From contig JAIOPG010000006.1 of the NCBI GenBank assembly GCA_021414025.1, positions 62,001-126,000 on the forward strand: a DNA stretch of 64,000 nucleotides, read 5' to 3'. This DNA is from Planctomycetota bacterium (GTDB taxonomy: Bacteria > Planctomycetota > Phycisphaerae > Phycisphaerales > SM1A02). Under the pieces are notes generated by a model. That model searched no databases and was not told where the DNA came from. It saw only the letters and a program-made list of their open reading frames with translations. A program made the position numbers and the translations under genes. Positions 8,634 through 47,263 of this stretch are shown here, in pieces (position 1 is the first letter of the stretch; every line of letters begins with the position of its first letter).

Positions 8634-10178
8634 TCAGGCGATGACGGCTTCGACCCGCGGATAGAGGGCGACCTTGGAGACTGCGGCGCCAGGCTTCAGA
8701 AAGCCCCACTGGGAGCGAATGTCCCATTTGGCATCCTCCGGGACGCCAAGCAGCCGGGAGAATTCCCCCATTTTCTGCGGTAGGAAGGGCTCCAGCAGCA
8801 GCGATGCAATGCGGACGCTCTCCAGGCACTGTGAAAGGATGGAGGCCACGCGGTCGCGCTGGGCAGGATCCTTCACCAGCTTGAAGGGCTCGGTCTGGTT
8901 GATGAACCCGTCCACCTCGCGCAGCAATTTCATGGCGTCGTCGGCCGCCGCCGAAAGATGGAAGTGCTCGAAGTGCCTCTGCCAGTCGGCGACCGCCTGC
9001 TTGCAGCGCGCCGGCCAGGGGCCGCCCTTCTCGCTGTCGGCGGGCATCTTGCCGTCGAAAGTCTTCGCGATCATCGCCGTCACGCGGCTGGAGCAGTTGC
9101 CGACGGTGTTGACCAGGTCGGCGACGTAGGTTTCGTGAAACGCCGCGGCGCGGAAATCCGCGTCGGTGGCGTCGAGCGGCCCGCGCGTCAGCATGAACCA
9201 GCGCCACGCATCCAGTCCATACTTCGCGATGTAGCCCTCGATCGTCGGCAGGTCGATGAAATTGCCCAGGCTCTTGCTCATCTTCTGGCCCTCGCTGATC
9301 CAGAAGCTGTGCGCGTGGATGTGCTTGGGAAGCGGCAGCTCCAGGGCCATCAGGATCGCCGGCCAGATGACGGCGTGGAACCAGAGGATTTCCTTGCCGA
9401 TCACGTGCCAGTCGGCGGGCCAGTAGCGCCGCTTGGTGTTGGCCGCGGAGTCGTCGGCGTAGTCCAGTGCCGTGATGTAGTTGAAGAGCGCGTCGATCCA
9501 CACGTAGATGACGTGGCCGGGGTCGCCCGGCATCGGGATGCCCCACTTGAAATTGGTGCGCGTGATCGGCACGTCCTGCAAGCCGTCGCGCAGGCGGCCG
9601 GCCACCTCGTTCATGCGGGCCAGCGGCTGCACGAATCCGGGCTGCTTCTCGAAGTGGGCCTTCAGCCGGTCGCTGAAGGCGCTCAGCTTGAAGTACCAGT
9701 TCTCCTCCTTGGCCCGGACCAGCGGCCGGCCGCTGATCGAGCTCTTGAAGTCGCACTCCTTGGCGCGGGTCTCGGTGAGGTATTCCTCCTGGCCCTCGTC
9801 GTACCAGCCCTCGAAGGCGCCCTTGTAGAGCGCGCCCGATTTCTGCAATCGCTCGATGAAAGCCTGCACCTGCTTTTCGTGCCGCGGCTGGGTGGTGCGG
9901 ATGAAGTCGGTGTTGGTCAGATCAAAGAGGGCGAGGGCGCGCTGGAACTCCGCGGCGTTGATGTCGGCCCACGCCTGCGGCGTCATGTTGTGGGCGGCGG
10001 CGGACTTCTCCACCTTCACGCCATGCTCGTCGGTTCCGGTGAGGAAGAAGACGTCGCCATCCTGCAGGCGGATCGCCCGCGCCCAGGCGTCGCACAGCGT
10101 GGTCGTGAAGACGTGGCCGATGTGCGGGTGGTCGTTGACGTAATAGATGGGTGTGGTGATGCAGGCCGTTCGGGACAT
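8634..10178 (-). CDS. metG: Methionyl-tRNA synthetase
   Basis: Class I synthetase that charges tRNA-Met. The 514-aa protein carries HIGH (in HPHIGHVF, about residues 18-21), KMSKS (GQKMSKSLGNF, about 300) and an anticodon-binding helical domain in the last 150 residues. It lacks the C-terminal EMAP-like tRNA-binding domain. The CxxC zinc knuckle pairs are missing from the connective region, as in the zinc-free Thermus-like forms. The ATG at 10178 is supported by a TAGACT hexamer 7 nt upstream and no ribosome binding site, i.e. probable leaderless translation. Confidence 0.95.
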   Translation of the reverse strand: MSRTACITTPIYYVNDHPHIGHVFTTTLCDAWARAIRLQDGDVFFLTGTDEHGVKVEKSAAAHNMTPQAWADINAAEFQRALALFDLTNTDFIRTTQPRHEKQVQAFIERLQKSGALYKGAFEGWYDEGQEEYLTETRAKECDFKSSISGRPLVRAKEENWYFKLSAFSDRLKAHFEKQPGFVQPLARMNEVAGRLRDGLQDVPITRTNFKWGIPMPGDPGHVIYVWIDALFNYITALDYADDSAANTKRRYWPADWHVIGKEILWFHAVIWPAILMALELPLPKHIHAHSFWISEGQKMSKSLGNFIDLPTIEGYIAKYGLDAWRWFMLTRGPLDATDADFRAAAFHETYVADLVNTVGNCSSRVTAMIAKTFDGKMPADSEKGGPWPARCKQAVADWQRHFEHFHLSAAADDAMKLLREVDGFINQTEPFKLVKDPAQRDRVASILSQCLESVRIASLLLEPFLPQKMGEFSRLLGVPEDAKWDIRSQWGFLKPGAAVSKVALYPRVEAVIA

Positions 10179-16189: not shown

Positions 16190-17062
16190 ATGGCAGCCCT
16201 CCCCATCGAACTTTTTGGCCATCGCGTCATCGCGAAGATCGGCACTGGCGCCGCCAGCGAGGTCTTCGTGGTGCAGGACATCAAGAGCAAGCAGGTCTGG
16301 GCCATGAAGCGCGTGGTGTATGTGGACGACAAGTCCGCCCGCTTCATCGAGCAGGTGGAGCAGGAGTACGCCATCGGCTCCAAGCTTGACCACCCCAACA
16401 TCCGCGGCATCAACAAGCTGCTGCGCACCAAGAAGCTCTTCAAGACCACCGAGGTGGGCCTGCTGATGGAGCTGGTCGACGCCGAGACCATGGACCAGCG
16501 CATGCCCCGCAGCATCGGCGAGGCGGCCAACCTCTTCGCCCAGGTCGCCCGCGGCCTGGAGCACATGAACGAGCGCGGCTTCGTGCACGGCGACATGAAG
16601 CCGATCAACGTCATGGTGACCGAGGATCGCAAGGTCAAGATCATCGACCTGGGCCAGGCCTGCAAGATCGACGAAGTGAAGAAGAGGATTCAGGGCACGC
16701 CCGGCTACATCGCGCCGGAGCAGGCGCACCGCGAGGCGATCACGCCCCAGACCGATGTCTACAACTTCGGCGCCACGATCTACTGGGTCATGGCGGGCGA
16801 GGTCATTCCGACGGCGCTGCCGCCGCAGGGCGACAACGTCCCCGTCTCCGCCGTGAACACCAGCATGATCAAGCTGCCCGTGCCGCTTAAGAAGCGCAAC
16901 CCCAATATTCCCGAGGAGCTGAGCGACCTGGTGCAGGAGTGCGTGCAGCTGGATCCCTCCGACCGCGCGCAAGGCATGGGCCCGATCGCGGAGCGCCTGG
17001 AGCTGATCGCGGCGGCGCTGGGCGACACGCACACCGGACTCGCGTCGGTCGGCGGCAAGTGA
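16190..17062 (+). CDS. Serine/threonine protein kinase (Hanks type)
   Basis: The 290-aa cytoplasmic protein is a bare kinase domain without membrane or sensor parts. Motifs: glycine loop GTGAAS (18-23), catalytic Lys40 in WAMK, helix-C Glu in EQEY (about 59), catalytic loop HGDMKPIN (133-140), metal site DLG (153-155), and APEQ. The loop has HGD instead of HRD and DLG instead of DFG, but all catalytic residues (K, D, N, D) are present, so it should be active as a non-RD kinase. The ATG at 16190 starts just before the domain. An in-frame extension to 16025 is open but has poor codon use. Confidence 0.88.
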   Translation: MAALPIELFGHRVIAKIGTGAASEVFVVQDIKSKQVWAMKRVVYVDDKSARFIEQVEQEYAIGSKLDHPNIRGINKLLRTKKLFKTTEVGLLMELVDAETMDQRMPRSIGEAANLFAQVARGLEHMNERGFVHGDMKPINVMVTEDRKVKIIDLGQACKIDEVKKRIQGTPGYIAPEQAHREAITPQTDVYNFGATIYWVMAGEVIPTALPPQGDNVPVSAVNTSMIKLPVPLKKRNPNIPEELSDLVQECVQLDPSDRAQGMGPIAERLELIAAALGDTHTGLASVGGK

Positions 17063-31716: not shown

Positions 31717-32343
31717 TCACGGAATCCCGAGGCCAGGCGTTTGCGACGCGCCCTCGAGCCAGGAGATGACCTGAGCGGCCTGCTCGTAGCGAACCGGAAA
31801 CCTCAGTCGGCCCACATCGTGCAGCCGACGGATGTCGATGCCGCCGGGATCGACGCCGACCGCGGTTGGATTTTCGCAGGGGACCTTCATGGCGGCGCAC
31901 TGGGCCTTCAGAAAGGTGCGCGGCTGCGCGTTGAGGCGACGCAGCAGGGCGGACTCCTCTTTCTCCAAAGGATTGGGCCGCAGCAAGGCGCCTTCATCCA
32001 GGAACCAGCCGTTGAGCCGGCCCGAATCGATGGTCACGCTCGCCCAGCGCACGTCCTCCGGTTCGCCGTGGTAGGCGCGCCACCGGTCGCAGAGCGTCGA
32101 GAAGCGGCCCGCTTCCTCCTGCCGCGCCAGCGTGACGATGAGCTGCATGTGCTCGTCGGCGTCGTCCGGCAGCTCGAGCACGGTGTCGACCGCCAGCAGC
32201 ATGGCCTCCATCACCGGCATGAAAAGCTGGCCGCTGTTGGCCACGATGATCTTGACCGCGACGCGCTCACCGTCGAACTTCAGGAACCCGCTCAGGTGGC
32301 TGTGAAGAAACTCGAGTGCGGAATCGATCGAAACATCCTGCAT
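31717..32343 (-). CDS. Unknown protein with possible DUF2470-like C-terminus
   Basis: The 208-aa product has no signal peptide. The C-terminal half (about residues 130-205: EESALLRRLNAQPRTFLKAQ, then VGVDPGGIDIRR and LRFPVRYEQAAQVISWLEG) resembles the DUF2470 domain found after split-barrel flavin/heme proteins of the HugZ type. The N-terminal half (VAVKIIVANSGQLFMPVMEAML) is unrecognised. The ATG is 6 nt after TAACAT, with no ribosome binding site. It lies upstream of phhA on the same strand but is probably transcribed separately. Confidence 0.6.
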   Translation of the reverse strand: MQDVSIDSALEFLHSHLSGFLKFDGERVAVKIIVANSGQLFMPVMEAMLLAVDTVLELPDDADEHMQLIVTLARQEEAGRFSTLCDRWRAYHGEPEDVRWASVTIDSGRLNGWFLDEGALLRPNPLEKEESALLRRLNAQPRTFLKAQCAAMKVPCENPTAVGVDPGGIDIRRLHDVGRLRFPVRYEQAAQVISWLEGASQTPGLGIP

Positions 32344-32349
32344 CAGTTC

Positions 32350-32355
32350 ATGTTA
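32350..32355 (-). promoter_or_regulatory. Putative -10 element (TAACAT) of the DUF2470-like gene
   Basis: Minus-strand TAACAT with a 6-nt spacer (GAACTG) to the ATG at 32343. Confidence 0.55.
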
Positions 32356-32373
32356 ATCCGCGCCGGCACTTCG

Positions 32374-32379
32374 TACACT
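32374..32379 (+). promoter_or_regulatory. Putative -10 element (TACACT) upstream of aroD-aroE
   Basis: TACACT is identical to the hexamer at ribBA and has the same 6-nt spacer (CCGCGA) to an ATG. That ATG (32386) opens a 21-codon frame, not aroD-aroE itself. Confidence 0.5.
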
Positions 32380-32385
32380 CCGCGA

Positions 32386-32451
32386 ATGCAGGGTCGCACC
32401 GGCCGTTCCAGTCGCAGCACGCCGCGCCGGCGGGAGCGACCATGTCGCTGA
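32386..32451 (+). CDS. Possible 21-aa leader peptide overlapping aroD-aroE
   Basis: The frame encodes a 21-residue peptide beginning MQGRTGRSSR and ending in Arg, rich in Arg (9 of 21) and Ser. Its ATG sits 6 nt after a TACACT hexamer, exactly as at leaderless genes in this window. Its stop overlaps the aroD-aroE start by 10 nt, so translation could be coupled or could cover the GGGAG ribosome binding site at 32432-32436. It may also be chance; there is no similarity evidence. Confidence 0.35.
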   Translation: MQGRTGRSSRSTPRRRERPCR

Positions 32452-34115
32452 TCGCGGTGGCGATCGCCGTGGACAGCGCGGATGAAGTCGAGGGGGCGAT
32501 TGCGGCCGCGCAGGCCGAGGCGGCACGCGGCGCCACCATGATCGAGTGGCGCGTGGACGGCCTGGCCGGGCACGAGGGCGCACTGGAAAGCATCGCGCGG
32601 CTGGTCAAGAACACTCCGAAGCCCTGCATCGTGACCATTCGAAGCAGCGCGGAGGGAGGCGGATTCAGTGGCGATGAGGAGGAGCGGCTCAATCTGCTCC
32701 TGGCGGTCTGCAAACTCGACGCGGCGCCGAGCTGCGTCGACCTGGAGCTTGGCGCGTTCCAGAAAAGTCCGTCATTTCAACGTGAATTCGCAGCCGCCAA
32801 ACGTTCGACGCGACTGATTCTCAGTTCGCATGACTTCGAGGGCCGGCCCGCGGATCTGCACAAGCGGATCGCGGCGATGTGGAGCGAGCCGCTCTGTTCG
32901 ATCGCGAAAGTCGCATGGCGCGCCCGCAGCGTTCGCGACAACCTGGAGGCCTTCGAGTTGCTGCACACGCAGCACAAGCCGACCATCGCCCTGTGCATGG
33001 GTCCCTTCGGGATCGCCAGCCGCGTGCTGGCGCCGAAGTTCAATGGCTTCCTGACCTACGCCCGCGCCGAAGGCGACCTGGGAACCGCGCCTGGCCAGCT
33101 CTCGGTCCAGGAGTTGAAGCATCTCTATCACCTGTCGCGGTTGACTCGAAGCACCCGCGTCTTCGGAGTCGTCGGCTGGCCCGTCGAGCACTCGCTTTCA
33201 CCGCTGCTTCACAACGCCGCCTTTGCAGCCGCCGACTTCGACGGCGCCTATGTTCCCTTCGCTGTTCCTTCGGAGTGGGAGCACTTCAAGGCTTCGGTGG
33301 GGGAGTTGTTCGAATCGCCGCTGCTGCAGTTGGGCGGACTCAGCATCACGCTGCCCCACAAGGAGCACGCACTTCGATGGTGCAAGGAGCGGGGCGGCAC
33401 TGCGGACGCGGTCAGCGAATGGTGCGGCGCGGCCAACACGCTGGTGAAAGATTTGAGCGGCACGATCTCAGCGGTCAACACCGACGCGCCCGCCGCCGTC
33501 GCGGCGCTGGCGACGGGTCTTGGCATTGACCAGCAGGCCTCGGCGCGACTCGCCTCGGGAGATGCGGACCATTCCAGCCCCGCCGATGTGGAAGCCGCCG
33601 CCCGCTGGAGCCGGCAGCGCGTCGCGGTGCTGGGCGCCGGCGGCGCGACCCGCGCCATCGTCGCCGGGCTTCTGCTCGCCGGCGCCGAAGTGGTCGTCGC
33701 CAATCGAACCCACGAAAGGGCCAGCCAACTCGCGGCCCAATTCAATCAGCGAAAAGATCCCGGCGGGCGCGAGGCTCGCGTGAAGGCGCTGCCGCTGGAT
33801 CAACTGGCCGCGCACTCCTTCAATGCCATCGTGAATGCCACCAGCGCTGGAATGACGGGCGGAGGCTCCGAGTCGAGCGACCCGCTGCCGGCCGATTGCA
33901 AGATCGCTCCGGGCATGGCGGTCATGGACATGGTCTATCGTCCGCGAGAGACGCCTCTGGTCCGGCGCGCCCGCAAGGCGGGAGCCGTGGTGATCGACGG
34001 CACGCAGATGTTTCTCAGGCAAGCCGCGATCCAGTTCCAGATGTTCACGGGCCGGAATCCGCCGATGAAATTGTGGTCGGAACTTCTCGAACAAAAGTTG
34101 AGTGGCCCGCGATGA
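32442..34115 (+). CDS. aroDE: Bifunctional 3-dehydroquinate dehydratase / shikimate dehydrogenase
   Basis: Catalyses two successive shikimate-pathway steps. The 557-aa fusion has an N-terminal type I dehydroquinase (1-230) with the catalytic His in SSHDFEG (about 128) and the Schiff-base Lys in SIAKVAWRA (about 154). A C-terminal shikimate dehydrogenase (from about 240) follows with GWPVEHSLSPLLHNAAF, catalytic Lys in SITLPHKE, and the NADP loop VLGAGGATRAIV. The same domain order occurs in plants and chlamydiae. GGGAG lies 5 nt before the ATG. An MFS gene and aroC follow on the same strand. Confidence 0.95.
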   Translation: MSLIAVAIAVDSADEVEGAIAAAQAEAARGATMIEWRVDGLAGHEGALESIARLVKNTPKPCIVTIRSSAEGGGFSGDEEERLNLLLAVCKLDAAPSCVDLELGAFQKSPSFQREFAAAKRSTRLILSSHDFEGRPADLHKRIAAMWSEPLCSIAKVAWRARSVRDNLEAFELLHTQHKPTIALCMGPFGIASRVLAPKFNGFLTYARAEGDLGTAPGQLSVQELKHLYHLSRLTRSTRVFGVVGWPVEHSLSPLLHNAAFAAADFDGAYVPFAVPSEWEHFKASVGELFESPLLQLGGLSITLPHKEHALRWCKERGGTADAVSEWCGAANTLVKDLSGTISAVNTDAPAAVAALATGLGIDQQASARLASGDADHSSPADVEAAARWSRQRVAVLGAGGATRAIVAGLLLAGAEVVVANRTHERASQLAAQFNQRKDPGGREARVKALPLDQLAAHSFNAIVNATSAGMTGGGSESSDPLPADCKIAPGMAVMDMVYRPRETPLVRRARKAGAVVIDGTQMFLRQAAIQFQMFTGRNPPMKLWSELLEQKLSGPR

Positions 34116-37139: not shown

Positions 37140-39041
37140 TCAGGCATTGGAGAGCGGAACCGGATCGGAGGCCAGGGCCGGGTGGTATCGCACGCGCCCG
37201 CGCAGAGCGTCGAAGACGGAGCTCAATTCGCGCGCCGGGATGATCCCCTCCAGCGAGCTTGGCGAAACGATCTGGCACCCTTGCTCGGCGGCCTTGGCGA
37301 AAGCGTCCGCGGCGGCGCGGCGGTCGCTGCGCAGCGAAGCGGCCAGGCCCAGCGCCCACCAGGCATCCTCGAAGTTCGGACGCAGCTGCGTCGCCATCTT
37401 GAAGGCGCGGCCGGCCTCGATGGGATTGCGCTCGTTGGTCAGGTAGGTGACCCCCATGTTGAAGTGCACGTCGGGATCCGCAGCGTCGGACTGGAGCAAG
37501 CCGCGAAAGAGTCGCAGCGCGTCCTGGTGTCCGGGCAGTCCCATTGAGAGACAGGCGACCGCCTCGTTCATGTGGCAGGCGCCGTGGTCACCGGTCGAGG
37601 TGGCGGATTCCTGGAACGCCTGACGGGCGCCGGCCCACGAGCGAGCCGAAAGCAGTCGAACGCCGCGCTCAAAGTGAATCTGATCGGCGCGGACTTCGCG
37701 CGATGGCGCGGCGGTGGACGGCGCCGCTTTCGCCGGCGAACCGAACTCGGGCTCCAGCAGCAGCGGAGCGTTCGCCGGCTCTACCTCCGCGGGTTCCGAG
37801 AGCGAAAGAGTTTGCTCGCCCGGTGTGGCCGTGGATTCGGACTGCAGTGCCGTCCTCGCCGACGCGATCAGCGGAGGTTCGGGCATGCGCGGCGAGGGCA
37901 CTTTGATTGGCGACTTCGCCATCCGCGGAAAAATCTGCTCGGCGGTGATGGAAATCTCCTCCGGAATCTCAAAGCGCACCACCCGGATGCGCCCGGACTT
38001 GATCCGCGCCACGCAGGGCTTGCGGCGCCCGCCGCCCAATTCAGGCGCGAGGGCGTCGGCCATGGTGCTGATGGTCAGCAGCACCCCCTCGCCGTAATTG
38101 CGGAACCAGCGATGCCCCTCCGGCGCCGCGTCCTGGGAGCGCACCATGCGCTGCACGTCGATTCCAAAGATGCGCTTCAATCCGCGCATCGAGCCGGCGA
38201 AGTCCTCGGCAGCGCCGCTCGCCGCGCCTTGGGAAGCTGCGGGCACCACCTTGGGCTCGCGCGGATGAAGCCGGTCGAAGGCGAAGGCCCGCAGCACCTC
38301 GGGTCGGGACTCCATCGTCTCGGGCCGGTCGATCGGGTCCAGCAGCGACTCGCGCGGCGGAGCGCTGTGGGCCAGCAGGAGTCCGTCGGGGCAGATCACC
38401 GCCACCGGAAGCTTGGCCGCGAGCTCCGCGCAGGCGCGGACCAGATTGTCAAGCGAGCGCTGCTGAATGGAGGGAACCGGCATCTCGGCCAGTCCGCGCA
38501 CCTTGCGCTCGTCCGGCGCGTCGTCCGCCAGGGATGCCAGGGCGAGCTCGCGATCGCCCGCGATCACCAAGGTCCGGGTCGGCGCCGCGGCGAAGCGTTC
38601 CAGCGCGATGGCCACGCACGCCGCGTCCCCCAGCGTTCCGCCCGAGAGATCGCCCAGGAAGACGATCTGCGGCGCGGAACCCTTCCCGGTGGCTTCGTCG
38701 ATGAATTCCAAAACCGTCTCCAGCGCGAGCACGTCGCCGCGCACATCGCCGATGATCCAGAGCGGCTCGCCCTCGGCGAGTTCGTTGAGCCGGAGCACGC
38801 GCCGGCCGTTGGGCCGGAACTCCGCGCCCATGGCGCCGGGGCCCGCTCCGATCAGCCGGTCGGCCGTCTGCACCGCGTCGCCGGCACGAGTGATCGCGCG
38901 AACCGTGTCGCCCCACATGGCGACCCGCTGGCGCACGCTCCGGAGGATGTGCTCCGCCTGCGGCTCGGTGAAATTGACCGCGACCATGGGACCCGGCGGG
39001 GGTACAATCGGTTTCGGCTCATTTCCGTGGGATTGGCTCAC
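37140..39041 (-). CDS. PPP-phosphatase-like protein fused to TPR repeats, metal motifs degenerate
   Basis: The 633-aa protein has an N-terminal domain (about 60-290) laid out like PPP-family phosphatases: IIGDVRGDVLALE (canonical GDxHG), VFLGDLSGG (canonical GDxVDRG), VIAGDREL (canonical GNHE) and LLLAHSAPP. The motif His, the VDR and the NH are all replaced, so metal binding and catalysis are doubtful. A Pro/Ala-rich linker and about four TPR units (about 480-610, e.g. DVHFNMGVTYLTNERNPIEAGRAFKMA) follow. The GTG at 39041 is 8 nt after TAGCAT; ATG 38987 is the alternative start. Confidence 0.68.
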   Translation of the reverse strand: MSQSHGNEPKPIVPPPGPMVAVNFTEPQAEHILRSVRQRVAMWGDTVRAITRAGDAVQTADRLIGAGPGAMGAEFRPNGRRVLRLNELAEGEPLWIIGDVRGDVLALETVLEFIDEATGKGSAPQIVFLGDLSGGTLGDAACVAIALERFAAAPTRTLVIAGDRELALASLADDAPDERKVRGLAEMPVPSIQQRSLDNLVRACAELAAKLPVAVICPDGLLLAHSAPPRESLLDPIDRPETMESRPEVLRAFAFDRLHPREPKVVPAASQGAASGAAEDFAGSMRGLKRIFGIDVQRMVRSQDAAPEGHRWFRNYGEGVLLTISTMADALAPELGGGRRKPCVARIKSGRIRVVRFEIPEEISITAEQIFPRMAKSPIKVPSPRMPEPPLIASARTALQSESTATPGEQTLSLSEPAEVEPANAPLLLEPEFGSPAKAAPSTAAPSREVRADQIHFERGVRLLSARSWAGARQAFQESATSTGDHGACHMNEAVACLSMGLPGHQDALRLFRGLLQSDAADPDVHFNMGVTYLTNERNPIEAGRAFKMATQLRPNFEDAWWALGLAASLRSDRRAAADAFAKAAEQGCQIVSPSSLEGIIPARELSSVFDALRGRVRYHPALASDPVPLSNA

Positions 39042-39110
39042 AGAAGGAAATGCTAGCGAGCGGATTCGTTTGGAGAACGCGCGCCTCCGCGGCGCGATGA
39101 GGACACCATC

Positions 39111-39761
39111 ATGAAAACAATTTTCGCCACCGCCATGCTTGTCGCCGTCGCCGCCGTCGCGGGATTCGCCGGCGCCCAGTCGGCTCCGCAATCACCTGAA
39201 CTCACCCAGAAATGGAAGGACCGAACCATGCACTCCATCAAAGCCACTTCGCTCGAAGGCGCGCCGATCGACCTCGCCCAGTACAAGGGCAAGGTGGTGC
39301 TGGTGGTGAACGTCGCCAGCCGCTGCGGATTCACCGGCCAGTACAGCGGCCTGCAAAAACTGTACGACACGTACAAGGACAAGGGGCTCGTGGTGCTGGG
39401 CATTCCCAGCAACGACTTCGGCGGGCAGGAGCCCGGCAGCGAGAAGGAGATCAAGGAATTCTGCACCGCCAAGTACGCGGTCACCTTTCCCATGCTCGCC
39501 AAGGCGCAGACCAAGGCGGGCCCCGGACAGAGCGAGATCTACGAGTTCCTCGGCACGCGCGTCGGCAAGCTGCCGGGCTGGAACTTCAGCAAGTATCTCG
39601 TCAACAAGGATGGACAGCCGGTGGCGTTCTACGCCAGCAACGTCACTCCCGAAGACAAGGCCCTGGTGAGCGCGGTCGAGCAGGCTCTGGGACTGGCCGC
39701 TGCGGCACCCTCCGACGCGAAGCCGACGGCGACTCCATCCGAGCCCGCCGTCAAGCATTGA
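39111..39761 (+). CDS. Glutathione peroxidase-family protein, exported
   Basis: Thiol peroxidase of the Gpx family, 216 aa. A signal peptide (about 22 residues, ending AGAQ) precedes the domain, so it should act in the periplasm, where glutathione is scarce and thioredoxin-like donors are more likely. The catalytic tetrad is visible: Cys in NVASRCGFTGQY (about 72), Gln in GIPSNDFGGQEPG, and Trp and Asn in WNFSKYLV. A Pro/Ala tail ends the protein. GAGGA lies upstream of the ATG. Confidence 0.9.
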   Translation: MKTIFATAMLVAVAAVAGFAGAQSAPQSPELTQKWKDRTMHSIKATSLEGAPIDLAQYKGKVVLVVNVASRCGFTGQYSGLQKLYDTYKDKGLVVLGIPSNDFGGQEPGSEKEIKEFCTAKYAVTFPMLAKAQTKAGPGQSEIYEFLGTRVGKLPGWNFSKYLVNKDGQPVAFYASNVTPEDKALVSAVEQALGLAAAAPSDAKPTATPSEPAVKH

Positions 39762-40985: not shown

Positions 40986-42884
40986 ATGCATGTTTTTCCG
41001 CCATCCCTGCGCCGCCGTCTTCGCGCTCCCGTTTGGGCGCTGCTTGGCGCGGCGTGCTGCGCCGGGGGCTCAATGGCCCAGGCGCCGGCGCCCCTGCGGC
41101 GCACGCCGGGCGTTGCGGCGTTTGTCAAGGCGATCGACTTGGCGCCTGAAAACGCGGTCACTCTGATCGTGGCGCCCGATCCCAAGTCGCTCGGCGAGGA
41201 CATGGGCGAGCTTGCGGCCAAGCTCGACCGCATGCAGGCTCTCACCGAACTCAAGCCGCTGGACCTGGTCAAGAGTCAGTTGGGCATCGGCCCGGGCATG
41301 AATGATCGCGGGCCGATTGTCGCCTGGTACTCGATCGCGGCGGATAAAACTCCGCAGTGGTGCGCCTTGATTCCCACCGTCGATGGCGCGCAGTTCATTC
41401 AGTCAAACCTCGAGGCGGCTCCGGACATCGCACCGGATGCCTATCGACGTAAGGGCAAGACCTATTACGCCCGGGTCATTGATGGCTTCGTCGTGGCGAG
41501 CCCGAGCGCCGATCTGGAGCGCGCCTACGCCGCCAAGCCGGGACTTGCGGATCGGCTGAAAAAGCGCCTGGGCGAGCGCGGTTTCGCGGTGCTGTGCGAC
41601 GGCGAAATCGGACTGTGGGCGGGGCCCGAGTCGCTGGCGGAATTGCGAAACAGCAATCGGCCTCAGGCCGCTGAAAAACCCCAAGACAAAACCGCGGCTC
41701 CCGGCGAAAAGGGCGCGGCACCGAGTGAAGCCTCCAAGGAAAATGACAAGGCCGCGGCGAAAAAAATTGAGGATTGGCAGCTGCGATCAGAAAAACTCCT
41801 GGCGGGCCTGACCGACGCCGTCGCGAGCGTCGATGTCGATCCACTGGGCGTGCTGATCCGCAGCTATTACGTGCTCGACCCTGAAAGCGAGTTGGGCAAG
41901 TCGGCACACGGCGGCGCGCACACCGGCGTCAGCTTCAGCCATCTGCCGCGCGGCTTCTTCGTCCTCGCGCTCTCGGCGGACATCGCCGGACTGGGCGGCA
42001 TGCAGACCTTCCTCGATCTCGCCGCGCTGGTCCCCGGCGGCGAGCAGGCGCCCTCATGGCTTGAACAGAACAAATCGCTGCTGACGTCGATCCAGCTGGC
42101 GATCTATCCCAGCAAGCTCGGCCTCATGGGCGGCGGACTTCTCAACGAGGCGATGCTCTGGCTCGCCACCACCGACGGGGTCAAGGCCAAGGCGGTACTG
42201 GAGCAGTGGATGGTGTCGCTCAACGGCGAGGCGGATGGACAGAAGCGCGAGGTGACCTGGGAAAAGGACAAGACCCTGAAGAATGGAGCGGTCGCGGACG
42301 CCTACCAGATCAAGGACACGCCGCTGCCACGCAATGGCCAGCCCGCGCGCCGCACCAACCCGATGGAGCGGATGTTCCGCACGCTTCTCTATGGACCGAA
42401 GGGGCCCTGCGGATTCGTGAAATCCTGCCCGGACGGCGTCTACGTCACTTTCAGTCAGCGGCCCGATGTGCTTGAGCGCGCAACCGGTGCCGCGGAAAAA
42501 TCATTGGAAGGCGATGATGTGCTCGCGGTGCTTCGCGCCTGGATGATGCCCAAGCCGGACGCGATGGCATTCATCGGCGTGGGTTCGTTGTTGAACGTCG
42601 TGCGCCAGGCGGCCAACGCCTTTCCCGGCGGCGGACTGGAGATTCCCGACGCGCCGCCTGACCTAGAGCCGATCGCTTTCGCCATGACGGTTGAGGGCGG
42701 ACGGATCGAAACCGCGACCATGATTCCCACCGGCGTCATCTCGGTTTTGGTCGCGGCCTACGCCGATCGCCGGGACGCGCAGATTGATGACCGGAAGGAT
42801 CCGGCTTCAACGAAGGACGCCGACGAGGACACGCCGACCCCGCCGCCCGCCGCCAAGAACCCGCCCGCACCCGCAGCGCCGTGA
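40986..42884 (+). CDS. Large secreted protein of unknown function
   Basis: The 632-aa product has a signal peptide (about 30 residues, ending SMAQA), then two related-looking alpha/beta halves separated by a Lys/Ala/Glu-rich linker (about 225-260), and a Pro/Asp-rich tail. The pattern of long beta strands and helices (VTLIVAPDPKSLGEDMGELA, then FVLALSADIAGLGGMQTFLD) recalls DUF3352-type envelope proteins, but I cannot name the family. The folP GTG start overlaps its stop by 4 nt, so the two genes are coupled, an unusual partnership. Confidence 0.65.
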   Translation: MHVFPPSLRRRLRAPVWALLGAACCAGGSMAQAPAPLRRTPGVAAFVKAIDLAPENAVTLIVAPDPKSLGEDMGELAAKLDRMQALTELKPLDLVKSQLGIGPGMNDRGPIVAWYSIAADKTPQWCALIPTVDGAQFIQSNLEAAPDIAPDAYRRKGKTYYARVIDGFVVASPSADLERAYAAKPGLADRLKKRLGERGFAVLCDGEIGLWAGPESLAELRNSNRPQAAEKPQDKTAAPGEKGAAPSEASKENDKAAAKKIEDWQLRSEKLLAGLTDAVASVDVDPLGVLIRSYYVLDPESELGKSAHGGAHTGVSFSHLPRGFFVLALSADIAGLGGMQTFLDLAALVPGGEQAPSWLEQNKSLLTSIQLAIYPSKLGLMGGGLLNEAMLWLATTDGVKAKAVLEQWMVSLNGEADGQKREVTWEKDKTLKNGAVADAYQIKDTPLPRNGQPARRTNPMERMFRTLLYGPKGPCGFVKSCPDGVYVTFSQRPDVLERATGAAEKSLEGDDVLAVLRAWMMPKPDAMAFIGVGSLLNVVRQAANAFPGGGLEIPDAPPDLEPIAFAMTVEGGRIETATMIPTGVISVLVAAYADRRDAQIDDRKDPASTKDADEDTPTPPPAAKNPPAPAAP

Positions 42885-45700: not shown

Positions 45701-47263
45701 ATGTCGGATTTTTGGCTTGTTTCCGTTGCCGGAACCAAGGAGGCGAAGCATCGACTCGCGCCGCCGGGCCCGATCACCATCGGGCGCGGAACCGACCGAA
45801 CGATCATCCTCGCCGAGAAAGTGGTCAGCCGGCATCACGCCACGCTGCATTGGTCATCCGCCACCGTCGACGAGCCCGGCATGTGGCGCATCTCCGACGA
45901 CGGGAGCTCCGCGGGCACCTACATCAATGGCGCGCAGGTTCAGGCGGGTCGCACCCTCCCGCTGCGGCATGGCGATCGGCTCGAGATTTCGCCCTGGACC
46001 TTCGAGGTGGTCGACCAGGAGGTGCCGCTGGATCTGGCGACCATGATCGACGTGTCGAGCGGGGAGGAGAAATCCAGGATCGAGGCGCAGGTGGAGCGCG
46101 TGCAGATTGCCGAGCCCGCGGCCTTCGCCCAGGATCAGCTGCTCATCCTCCTGCAGGCAGGCGAGTCCATTCACCAGGCCGAGCACGAGGCCGAGGTCTA
46201 TCCCGCGGTGGTGCATGCGCTGGCGATGGCCACGCAATTCGCGAACGTCGCCTTCGTCCGCAATGTCGGCCAGGGAGACGCGGTCGAGGTGCTCACCCAG
46301 ATCGGCGAGATGAAGGACGCCCAGGGCCGTCCGCGCATCAGCCGGTCGATGCTCCGGCAGGCGCGGCAGGGGCCGGTGATCGAGAAGGCGTTCAGCGCCG
46401 CCGATCCGACGCTCGAAGCCAATCCGAACCACACCGTCATGCCGAAAAGCATGGAAGTCCGCCGCGCCATCTGCGTCCCCGTGGAGCTTGCCGGCGTGCT
46501 CTTTGGTTTCCTCTACCTGGACGACGCCAAGCCGCGCGACGACGCCCGGCTCGCGGAGGTTGCCAGCATCGCCGGCGCCATCGCCCGCATGGCGGCGCAG
46601 GGGCTGGGCAATCAGCAGCGCGTGCGGATGGCGCAGCGCTTCGCCATGGAGCAGCAGCTCATGTTCGGGGGCACCATGCACGCGCTGATCTCGGCGATCG
46701 ACGCCAAGGATCCCTACACGCGCGGCCATTCCGTCCGCGTGGCCCGCTTCGCCCGGCTGCTCGCCCAAGCTGCGGGCCTGGGCGTCGAGCTCGTCGAGCG
46801 CACCCATCTTTGCGGCACGGTCCATGACATCGGAAAGATCGGCGTGCCCGAGGCGGTGCTGTGCAAGGCGGAGCGGCTCACCGACGATGAGTTCGCCAAG
46901 ATCACCGCACATCCGGCGACCGGGTTCCAGATCCTGCGCGACATTCCGCAAATGCGCGACGTGCTCCACGGGGTGCTGGAGCACCACGAGAAGTGGGACG
47001 GTTCCGGCTATCCGAACGGGCTCGTCGGTGACAAGATCTCACTGCTCGGTCGGATCATCTGCCTGGCGGACTGCTTCGACGCCATGACCAGCGCCCGCGT
47101 CTACCGGCCCGCGCGCAGCGTGGAGGAGGTGCAGGCCGAGATGCAGAAGTGCCTGGGCCGGCACTTCGATCCCGAGCTGGGAAAAATCTTCCTGTCGATT
47201 CCGCGCCTCAAGCTCCAGGAGCAGATCGTCCGCAGCGACGTGGCCGCCAGCGGATCATTTTGA
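45701..47263 (+). CDS. FHA-GAF-HD-GYP signalling protein
   Basis: The 520-aa cytoplasmic protein has an FHA phosphothreonine-binding domain (about 10-105: ITIGRGTDR, VVSRHHATL, GTYINGAQV), a GAF-like domain (about 140-300: ICVPVELAGVLFGFLYLDD) and an HD-GYP domain (about 320-500: GHSVRVARFA, VHDIGKIGVPE, HHEKWDGSGYPNGL, ADCFDAMTS). HD-GYP domains hydrolyse cyclic di-GMP, and all metal residues appear intact. The FHA domain suggests it reads phosphorylation by Ser/Thr kinases such as the one at 16190 (inference). Its 3' end overlaps the convergent AI-2E gene by 9 bp. Confidence 0.93.
   Translation: MSDFWLVSVAGTKEAKHRLAPPGPITIGRGTDRTIILAEKVVSRHHATLHWSSATVDEPGMWRISDDGSSAGTYINGAQVQAGRTLPLRHGDRLEISPWTFEVVDQEVPLDLATMIDVSSGEEKSRIEAQVERVQIAEPAAFAQDQLLILLQAGESIHQAEHEAEVYPAVVHALAMATQFANVAFVRNVGQGDAVEVLTQIGEMKDAQGRPRISRSMLRQARQGPVIEKAFSAADPTLEANPNHTVMPKSMEVRRAICVPVELAGVLFGFLYLDDAKPRDDARLAEVASIAGAIARMAAQGLGNQQRVRMAQRFAMEQQLMFGGTMHALISAIDAKDPYTRGHSVRVARFARLLAQAAGLGVELVERTHLCGTVHDIGKIGVPEAVLCKAERLTDDEFAKITAHPATGFQILRDIPQMRDVLHGVLEHHEKWDGSGYPNGLVGDKISLLGRIICLADCFDAMTSARVYRPARSVEEVQAEMQKCLGRHFDPELGKIFLSIPRLKLQEQIVRSDVAASGSF

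Follow-up and report, generated by a model that had tools for sequence, protein, structure and literature searches.

Can a bacterium keep a PPP-family protein that has exchanged the residues needed to remove phosphate, and to what end? The question is raised by a gene at positions 37140–39041 of the window, as the whole 64,000-nucleotide stretch of planctomycete DNA analyzed here is called. The original prediction placed at this position, with no strand given, a PPP fold with degraded metal motifs and an attached TPR module. The reading frame was found on the minus strand, where it runs from a GTG at 39041 to a stop at 37140, encodes 633 amino acids and shows GC fractions of 0.72/0.52/0.84 at the three codon positions. 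The gene is present in 16/16 genomes of the genus. Use of the GTG as start codon is supported by a comparison of 15 members (the fragment L014 was left out), 10 of which have a GTG at an equal offset from a conserved PPPGP segment; in 8 of these 10, an in-frame stop lies a few codons 5′ of that GTG. Two overlapping plus-strand open reading frames were considered. The frame at 37572–39056 (494 amino acids) has relatives in 5/13 neighborhoods at 31%–40% identity and the frame at 38467–39114 in 8/13 neighborhoods at 62%–72% identity. Both were set aside as likely shadows because the minus-strand frame is open in 13/13 neighborhoods and is under purifying selection.

The coding sequence comprises three parts, all on the minus strand: a domain with the PPP (calcineurin-like) fold at 37917–38945 (residues about 33–375), delimited by AlphaFold2, Foldseek and VIA-align; a linker at 37707–37916 (about residues 376–445); and a TPR module at 37200–37709 (residues about 445–614). 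When the window protein was searched with its own sequence, no match to Pfam Metallophos was found. Scanned singly, 8/16 members matched it, with a best E value of 8.5e-4, which indicates that the Pfam search is blind to the phosphatase fold of the window protein. A profile of the N-terminal domains matched calcineurin weakly (E 0.0097); upon addition of the homolog from a planctomycete outside the genus, G293, the calcineurin chains were matched at 1.5e-07 (one chain, matched twice) and 2.6e-05 (the next chain). The AlphaFold2 model, computed from a 16-sequence alignment, has a mean pLDDT of 77 and a pTM of 0.58, and calcineurin, PP1 and PP2A took the top ranks in Foldseek. In VIA-align, the model superposed on PP5 (4zx2) with a Z score of 24.1 and an rmsd of 3.6 Å over 284 residues and on PP1 with 24.0 and 3.5 Å over 272; rows within 1 of Z 24.1 count as tied, PP1 included. 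The structure of the PP1 H66K variant (6obq) was also among the matches. By these results, the N-terminal domain has the PPP fold, and a chance resemblance to PPP motifs is ruled out by the fold and homology searches. Pfam RcnB, a nickel/cobalt transporter regulator, was matched by the N-terminal domain in 5/16 members (best E 0.004), probably by chance.

The TPR module consists of four helix pairs and a final helix. Its assignment draws on a sub-threshold Pfam TPR_11 match (3e-05; 24.1 bits against a cut-off of 26.8 bits), on many TPR chains matched in the PDB and on the helix pairs seen in the AlphaFold2 model, all of which agree with the predicted fusion. The linker evolves fast and is modeled with low confidence, with pLDDT <50 at model residues 365–437; in the pairs for which values are given, its dN reaches 1.45.

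The active site departs from the canonical one at all three core PPP motifs. Motif I, canonically GDxHGD, reads GDVRGD (residues 98–103; 38733–38750, minus strand), so that PP1 Asp64 corresponds to Asp99, which is kept, and PP1 His66, the ligand of metal M1, to Arg101. Asp99 and Arg101 are found in 15/15 rows covering the site, the motif reading GDVRGD or GDLRGD. Motif II, canonically GDxxDRG, reads GDLSGG (residues 130–135; 38637–38654, minus strand). Asp131, the equivalent of PP1 Asp92, is kept in 16/16 members, and the Asp-Arg pair of PP1 (Asp95-Arg96) is lost, the motif having one residue fewer than its G293 counterpart (GDL-SGG versus GDLFDRG). The genus pattern is GD(L/W)x(G/A)G, and an arginine at residues 132–135 occurs in no row. 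In motif III, GDRE (residues 162–165; 38547–38558, minus strand) stands for the canonical GNHE/D, each of its four residues being found in 16/16 members; the counterparts are PP1 Asn124 for Asp163, an M2 ligand, and PP1 His125, the general acid, for Arg164. The LAHS segment (residues 223–226; 38364–38375, minus strand) keeps a metal-ligand histidine, His225, in 16/16 members, at the position of PP1 His173. The last metal-ligand histidine, which matches PP1 His248, is replaced by Gln303 in the RSQD segment (residues 301–304; 38130–38141, minus strand); this residue is Gln in 12/16 members and still His in 4/16.

The original prediction had named GDVRGD, GDLSGG and GDRE, and all three are present as described. 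Their order is likewise kept, and so is their spacing apart from the residue by which motif II falls short of that in G293. None of the signatures GDxHG, GDxVDRG and GNHE is found in the genus proteins. The position of PP1 R221, located by visual alignment with the SRxxxFG-type segment seen in relatives, holds no conserved arginine, and the motif II arginine is absent in 16/16 members, so that neither arginine of the two-arginine phosphate clamp is conserved. R96 and R221 are described as nearly universal in PPPs (PMC10214084). The genus proteins thus combine a phosphatase fold with replaced catalytic residues.

The substituted residues could be identified because relatives with intact metal ligands exist. 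In a sample of 397 genomes of the class (E 0.001), nine matched: two of the genus, six with weak partial matches and G293, the one strong further match (E 1.9e-34 over 284 positions). G293 scored 416.9 bits against a profile holding its own row and 118 bits against a profile built without it. Its motifs read GDIHGD, GDLFDRG, GNHD, AHGG and RGHD. The G293 domain was modeled with modest confidence (pLDDT 67.7) in the PPP fold, with a Z score of 20.1 to PP5 (3.7 Å, 272 residues aligned). A tblastn search of 72,556 plasmid records with the window protein matched nine, all from Microvirga or Rhizobium (best 8e-21), and the same nine match the G293 protein at 43%–45% identity. Two Microvirga proteins and one Rhizobium protein were aligned; they read GDLHGD, GDLFDDEG, GNHD, HGG and RGHD. 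All four aligned relatives therefore have His at the motif I site, GNHD at motif III and GHD at the last histidine. In the Microvirga and Rhizobium proteins, the motif II arginine is absent although the metal ligands are intact, and its loss alone is thus not diagnostic of inactivity. With the G293 protein as query, the only class genomes matched beyond the genus were two with partial matches, at E values of 2.5e-8 and 4.3e-8; a second genome of its own family gave no match. A scan of viral contigs with the G293 protein also gave no match, which says little because the scan patterns were narrow.

The gene context of these relatives was examined at five loci, one planctomycete (L142) and four of the nine plasmid records (L154–L157). 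In G293, the PPP gene is preceded by a VWA-domain gene, by a kinase gene whose C-terminal FHA match stays below the cut-off and by a short frame in which an FHA match is likewise sub-threshold; in the gene that comes after it, an FHA domain exceeds the cut-off. The order VWA - kinase - PPP recurs at the four plasmid loci, where the VWA gene is 54%–56% identical to that of G293 in 4/4 and the kinase 44%–46% identical in 3/4 and partial in the fourth. All four domains exceed the Pfam cut-off in Microvirga lotononidis: VWA, kinase, Metallophos and FHA, the last of these on the kinase. The clusters lie at L142:4928-9336 and 9222-10160, at L154:3453-7080 and in L155, L156 and L157. In Rhizobium leguminosarum CP050552.1 (L155:5593-7502), alone among the four plasmid loci, the PPP match falls in two overlapping frames, reflecting either a frame break or a sequencing error.

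Another PPP-like family, which includes a gene outside the window (G000:C1:52098-52886, L132), was matched in 141/151 relatives searched. Its members L059 and L062 carry GD(I/L)HD, LQE..IHG replacing the GDxVDRG segment, NHE and VGH, and they represent another atypical, widely kept protein in Phycisphaerales. As a candidate for nearest relative, this family was set aside because the profile scores of L059 and L062, 19.7 and 17.7 bits, fall below those of several other PPPs (26.6–31.2 bits) and of G293 (416.9 bits).

The altered protein is confined to one genus in the genomes sampled. In a search of 201 relatives, 52 matched: the 16 genus genomes, in which one or two rows covered most of the protein, and 36 others, in which only query residues ≥356, the linker and TPR part, were matched. 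Within the genus, the match is split over two contigs in G002 and begins at residue 109 in G009. A domain profile run against 181 family genomes (E 0.01) matched 25, of which 16 were the genus members (full-length or nearly so) and nine were weak (E 4.5e-4 to 0.0098); no full-length match was found in the 165 other family genomes. A phylum sample of 392 genomes (E 1e-5) gave 11 matches, two from the genus and nine partial ones of at most 178 positions. Genus members share 42%–68% identity with the window protein in the aligned portions. The conservation among Phycisphaerae on which the original prediction was to be checked thus holds as a genus-level trait and fails as a class-level one. From isolate names such as Baikal-deep, Loclat and La Plata, we read the host genus as a freshwater one.

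The neighborhood is conserved as well, in the order aroC - DUF493 - pseudophosphatase gene - GSHPx. Among the 13 stretches taken, chorismate synthase was found in 12, DUF493 in 12, the pseudophosphatase gene in 13 and glutathione peroxidase in 13; further along, the next two genes were found in 13 each, a pterin-binding (folP-type) gene in 12 and a thioredoxin gene in 12. Elsewhere in the window, a plus-strand gene at 32316–34115 encodes a fusion of type I 3-dehydroquinase and shikimate dehydrogenase by Pfam. The plus-strand gene at 40992–42884 has no Pfam match at E 0.01; relatives of an overlapping frame occur in 13/13 genus neighborhoods, and its product is an uncharacterized conserved protein.

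To what extent selection holds the altered site was judged from the 16 members. Mean identity is 0.964 in the seven columns of the canonical site versus 0.692 for the domain, a value reached by 58 of 100,000 random column sets. For the PPP part, dN/dS (Nei-Gojobori) is 0.086–0.192 in the five closest pairs (dS <0.25), and in the three closest pairs covering the TPR part it is 0.058–0.201 there. Between distant members, the PPP part gives 0.34–0.63, with dS near saturation; values are given only below a limit of synonymous difference, that is, for 31 of 120 pairs. A1–A3 and the column counts take in all 16 members, L014 without the first motif; the near-duplicates L005, L007 and L008 were left out of A4, these and the fragment L014 out of A5 and A6, and the Rhizobium locus L155, with its match in two pieces, out of A6. 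The observation is not a matter of chance, since the gene is retained in 16/16 genus members and the changed sites rank with the more conserved ones of the domain. Retention in 16/16 genomes at a dN/dS of 0.09–0.19 in the five closest pairs points to maintenance by selection. By the sequence evidence, the altered residues are fixed and the gene is not decaying, and substitutions fixed by selection imply that the pocket would still be functional.

The explanation we favor, and consider moderately probable, is that the gene encodes a genus-specific bacterial PPP-type pseudophosphatase that shares common descent with the kinase-linked PPPs and acts as a binding or scaffold module. The change may have run from intact to altered, by descent from the PPP subfamily with intact metal ligands found in the VWA - kinase/FHA - PPP clusters. 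The residues needed for the canonical two-metal reaction are absent, with Arg101, Arg164, Asp163 and, in most members, Gln303 in their places and both clamp arginines unconserved. The pocket would then most likely be a metal-poor binding site in which Arg101 and Arg164 lie within a ring formed by His225 and conserved acids, and a guanidinium, perhaps that of Arg101, may substitute for metal M1. The C-terminal TPRs may provide a protein-docking surface, which would make the window protein an adaptor or a sequestering factor. Judged from its residues, the protein probably binds or organizes partners and does not remove phosphate. Counting against this are Asp99, Asp131, Asp163, His225 and Gln/His303, which could still hold one metal ion, and the last histidine, which 4/16 members keep. 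The original designation as a pseudo-phosphatase is strongly supported by the sequence, and its description as a PPP fold with degraded metal motifs and a TPR fusion is backed by the fold prediction, the intact-ligand homologs and the conservation.

A phosphoprotein is a plausible ligand of the putative pocket, and the protein may, as originally suggested, bind phosphoproteins and cooperate with its genome's kinases and FHA proteins. The window genome holds six protein kinase and four FHA matches over the cut-off. One kinase match lies at 16226–16969 of the window, and at 45701–47263 (plus strand), 6.7 kb from the pseudophosphatase gene, a 520-amino-acid protein carries FHA and HD domains over the cut-off and a sub-threshold GAF match; relatives of this frame occur in 8/13 neighborhoods, taken as stretches of limited length. 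Such a partnership is favored because the intact-ligand relatives adjoin a kinase and FHA domains in the distant planctomycete G293 and an FHA-bearing kinase in Microvirga, and because of the FHA gene 6.7 kb away. It is disfavored because none of the kinase matches of the own-genome search adjoins the pseudophosphatase gene, because the G293-cluster kinase has matches in the genus at only 24%–41% identity, because the clamp arginines are unconserved and because a search of the 16 genus genomes, which had no internal positive control, returned no relative of the G293-cluster VWA gene. The sole VWA control was a blastp comparison of the longer G293 VWA frame with the four plasmid loci, which were matched. 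A doubtful but not negligible possibility is that the protein is a metal-free reader, in which Arg101 and Arg164 in the M1/phosphate region bind phosphoserine, phosphothreonine or another phospho-ligand, no hydrolysis follows and the TPRs present the bound protein. If true, this would be a bacterial phosphoprotein-binding domain built from an eraser fold.

Alternatively, the PPP-fold protein could have remained an enzyme while its chemistry changed, acting as a metallo-hydrolase with a mononuclear or otherwise ligated center, with Arg101 and Arg164 binding the substrate phosphate. We regard this as unlikely. Five possible metal ligands are left, four of them invariant (Asp99 in 15/15; Asp131, Asp163 and His225 in 16/16), and neither new arginine varies in the rows that cover it. 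A precedent may be seen in the lipid A enzyme LpxH, which has an arginine in its GN(H/R)D motif and yet is active, a point for which the literature search gave no confirmation. The M1 ligand histidine, the general-acid histidine and the clamp arginines are, however, all lost together. In addition, PP1 with His66 alone changed is described as lacking M1 (PMC10776994). The family searches gave no other catalytic family with confidence.

An equally improbable reading is that of a pure structural scaffold, in which the PPP fold serves as a protein-protein surface with no binding of small ligands or phosphate and the TPRs hold the partner. VPS29 and the B subunits of eukaryotic DNA polymerases are examples of scaffolds on this fold. 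The strong constraint on the TPR module, measured in the three closest covering pairs, and the lack of conservation at both phosphate-clamp arginines agree with such a role. In contrast, the pocket residues are 96% identical as against 69% for the domain, which argues that the pocket is in use and that the surface is not the only constrained feature, although buried salt bridges could mimic this pattern. A decaying pseudogene or assembly artifact, which the loss of the canonical motifs might suggest, is ruled out by conservation in 16/16 genus genomes across separate assemblies, with matches free of internal stops, at the same locus and with dN/dS values of purifying selection.

Compared with known systems, the favored pseudophosphatase stands closest in descent to the VWA - kinase/FHA - PPP subfamily, to which it is homologous over the PPP domain (25%–34% identity), the helical lead-in and the C-terminal segment included. 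The cluster PPPs have intact metal ligands and kinase and VWA neighbors, whereas in the window protein the ligands are altered, a TPR tail is added and neither neighbor is present; in Pfam scans of the proteins from G293, one Microvirga and one Rhizobium, Metallophos was the only match and no TPR was found. PP5, the top structural match tied with PP1, likewise joins PPP and TPR modules. PP5, an active phosphatase, carries its TPRs N-terminal to the PPP domain; the window protein has them at the C-terminal side and has an altered active site, which places it outside PP5.

PPP-type pseudophosphatases are rare in print and are known in eukaryotes. Those of kinetoplastids were predicted in 2007 (PMC2175518), and Plasmodium PfPPP8, in which GDxxDRG has become GNLINRG and whose recombinant phosphatase domain showed no activity, was called the first PPP-family pseudophosphatase in 2023 (PMC10317984). 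Restoring residues in PfPPP8 did not bring activity back. They share with the window protein the substituted catalytic motifs in a PPP domain. They differ in being eukaryotic and in carrying other substitutions (in PfPPP8, in one core motif), with no Arg-for-His exchange at motifs I or III in the parts of these papers that were consulted. A literature search by title and start of abstract, whose coverage left out most subscription journals, returned no bacterial PPP-type pseudophosphatase, and a term search within a paper on PPP origin (PMC8249667) gave no match for Planctomycetes or pseudo-forms. This absence of a bacterial case is weak evidence.

With both the intact-ligand relatives and 16 altered members known, the proposed route from kinase-linked eraser to non-catalytic protein becomes testable residue by residue. 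An experimental counterpart is PP1 H66K, described as a stable PP1 variant without M1 (PMC10776994). It places a basic residue in lieu of the M1 ligand histidine, at the same motif position as Arg101, and by analogy a basic side chain may fill the M1 site in either protein. PP1 H66K is an engineered single change, whereas the window protein carries a natural arginine and several further changes; its Arg-for-His swap is a natural test of a PPP pocket without the M1 metal.
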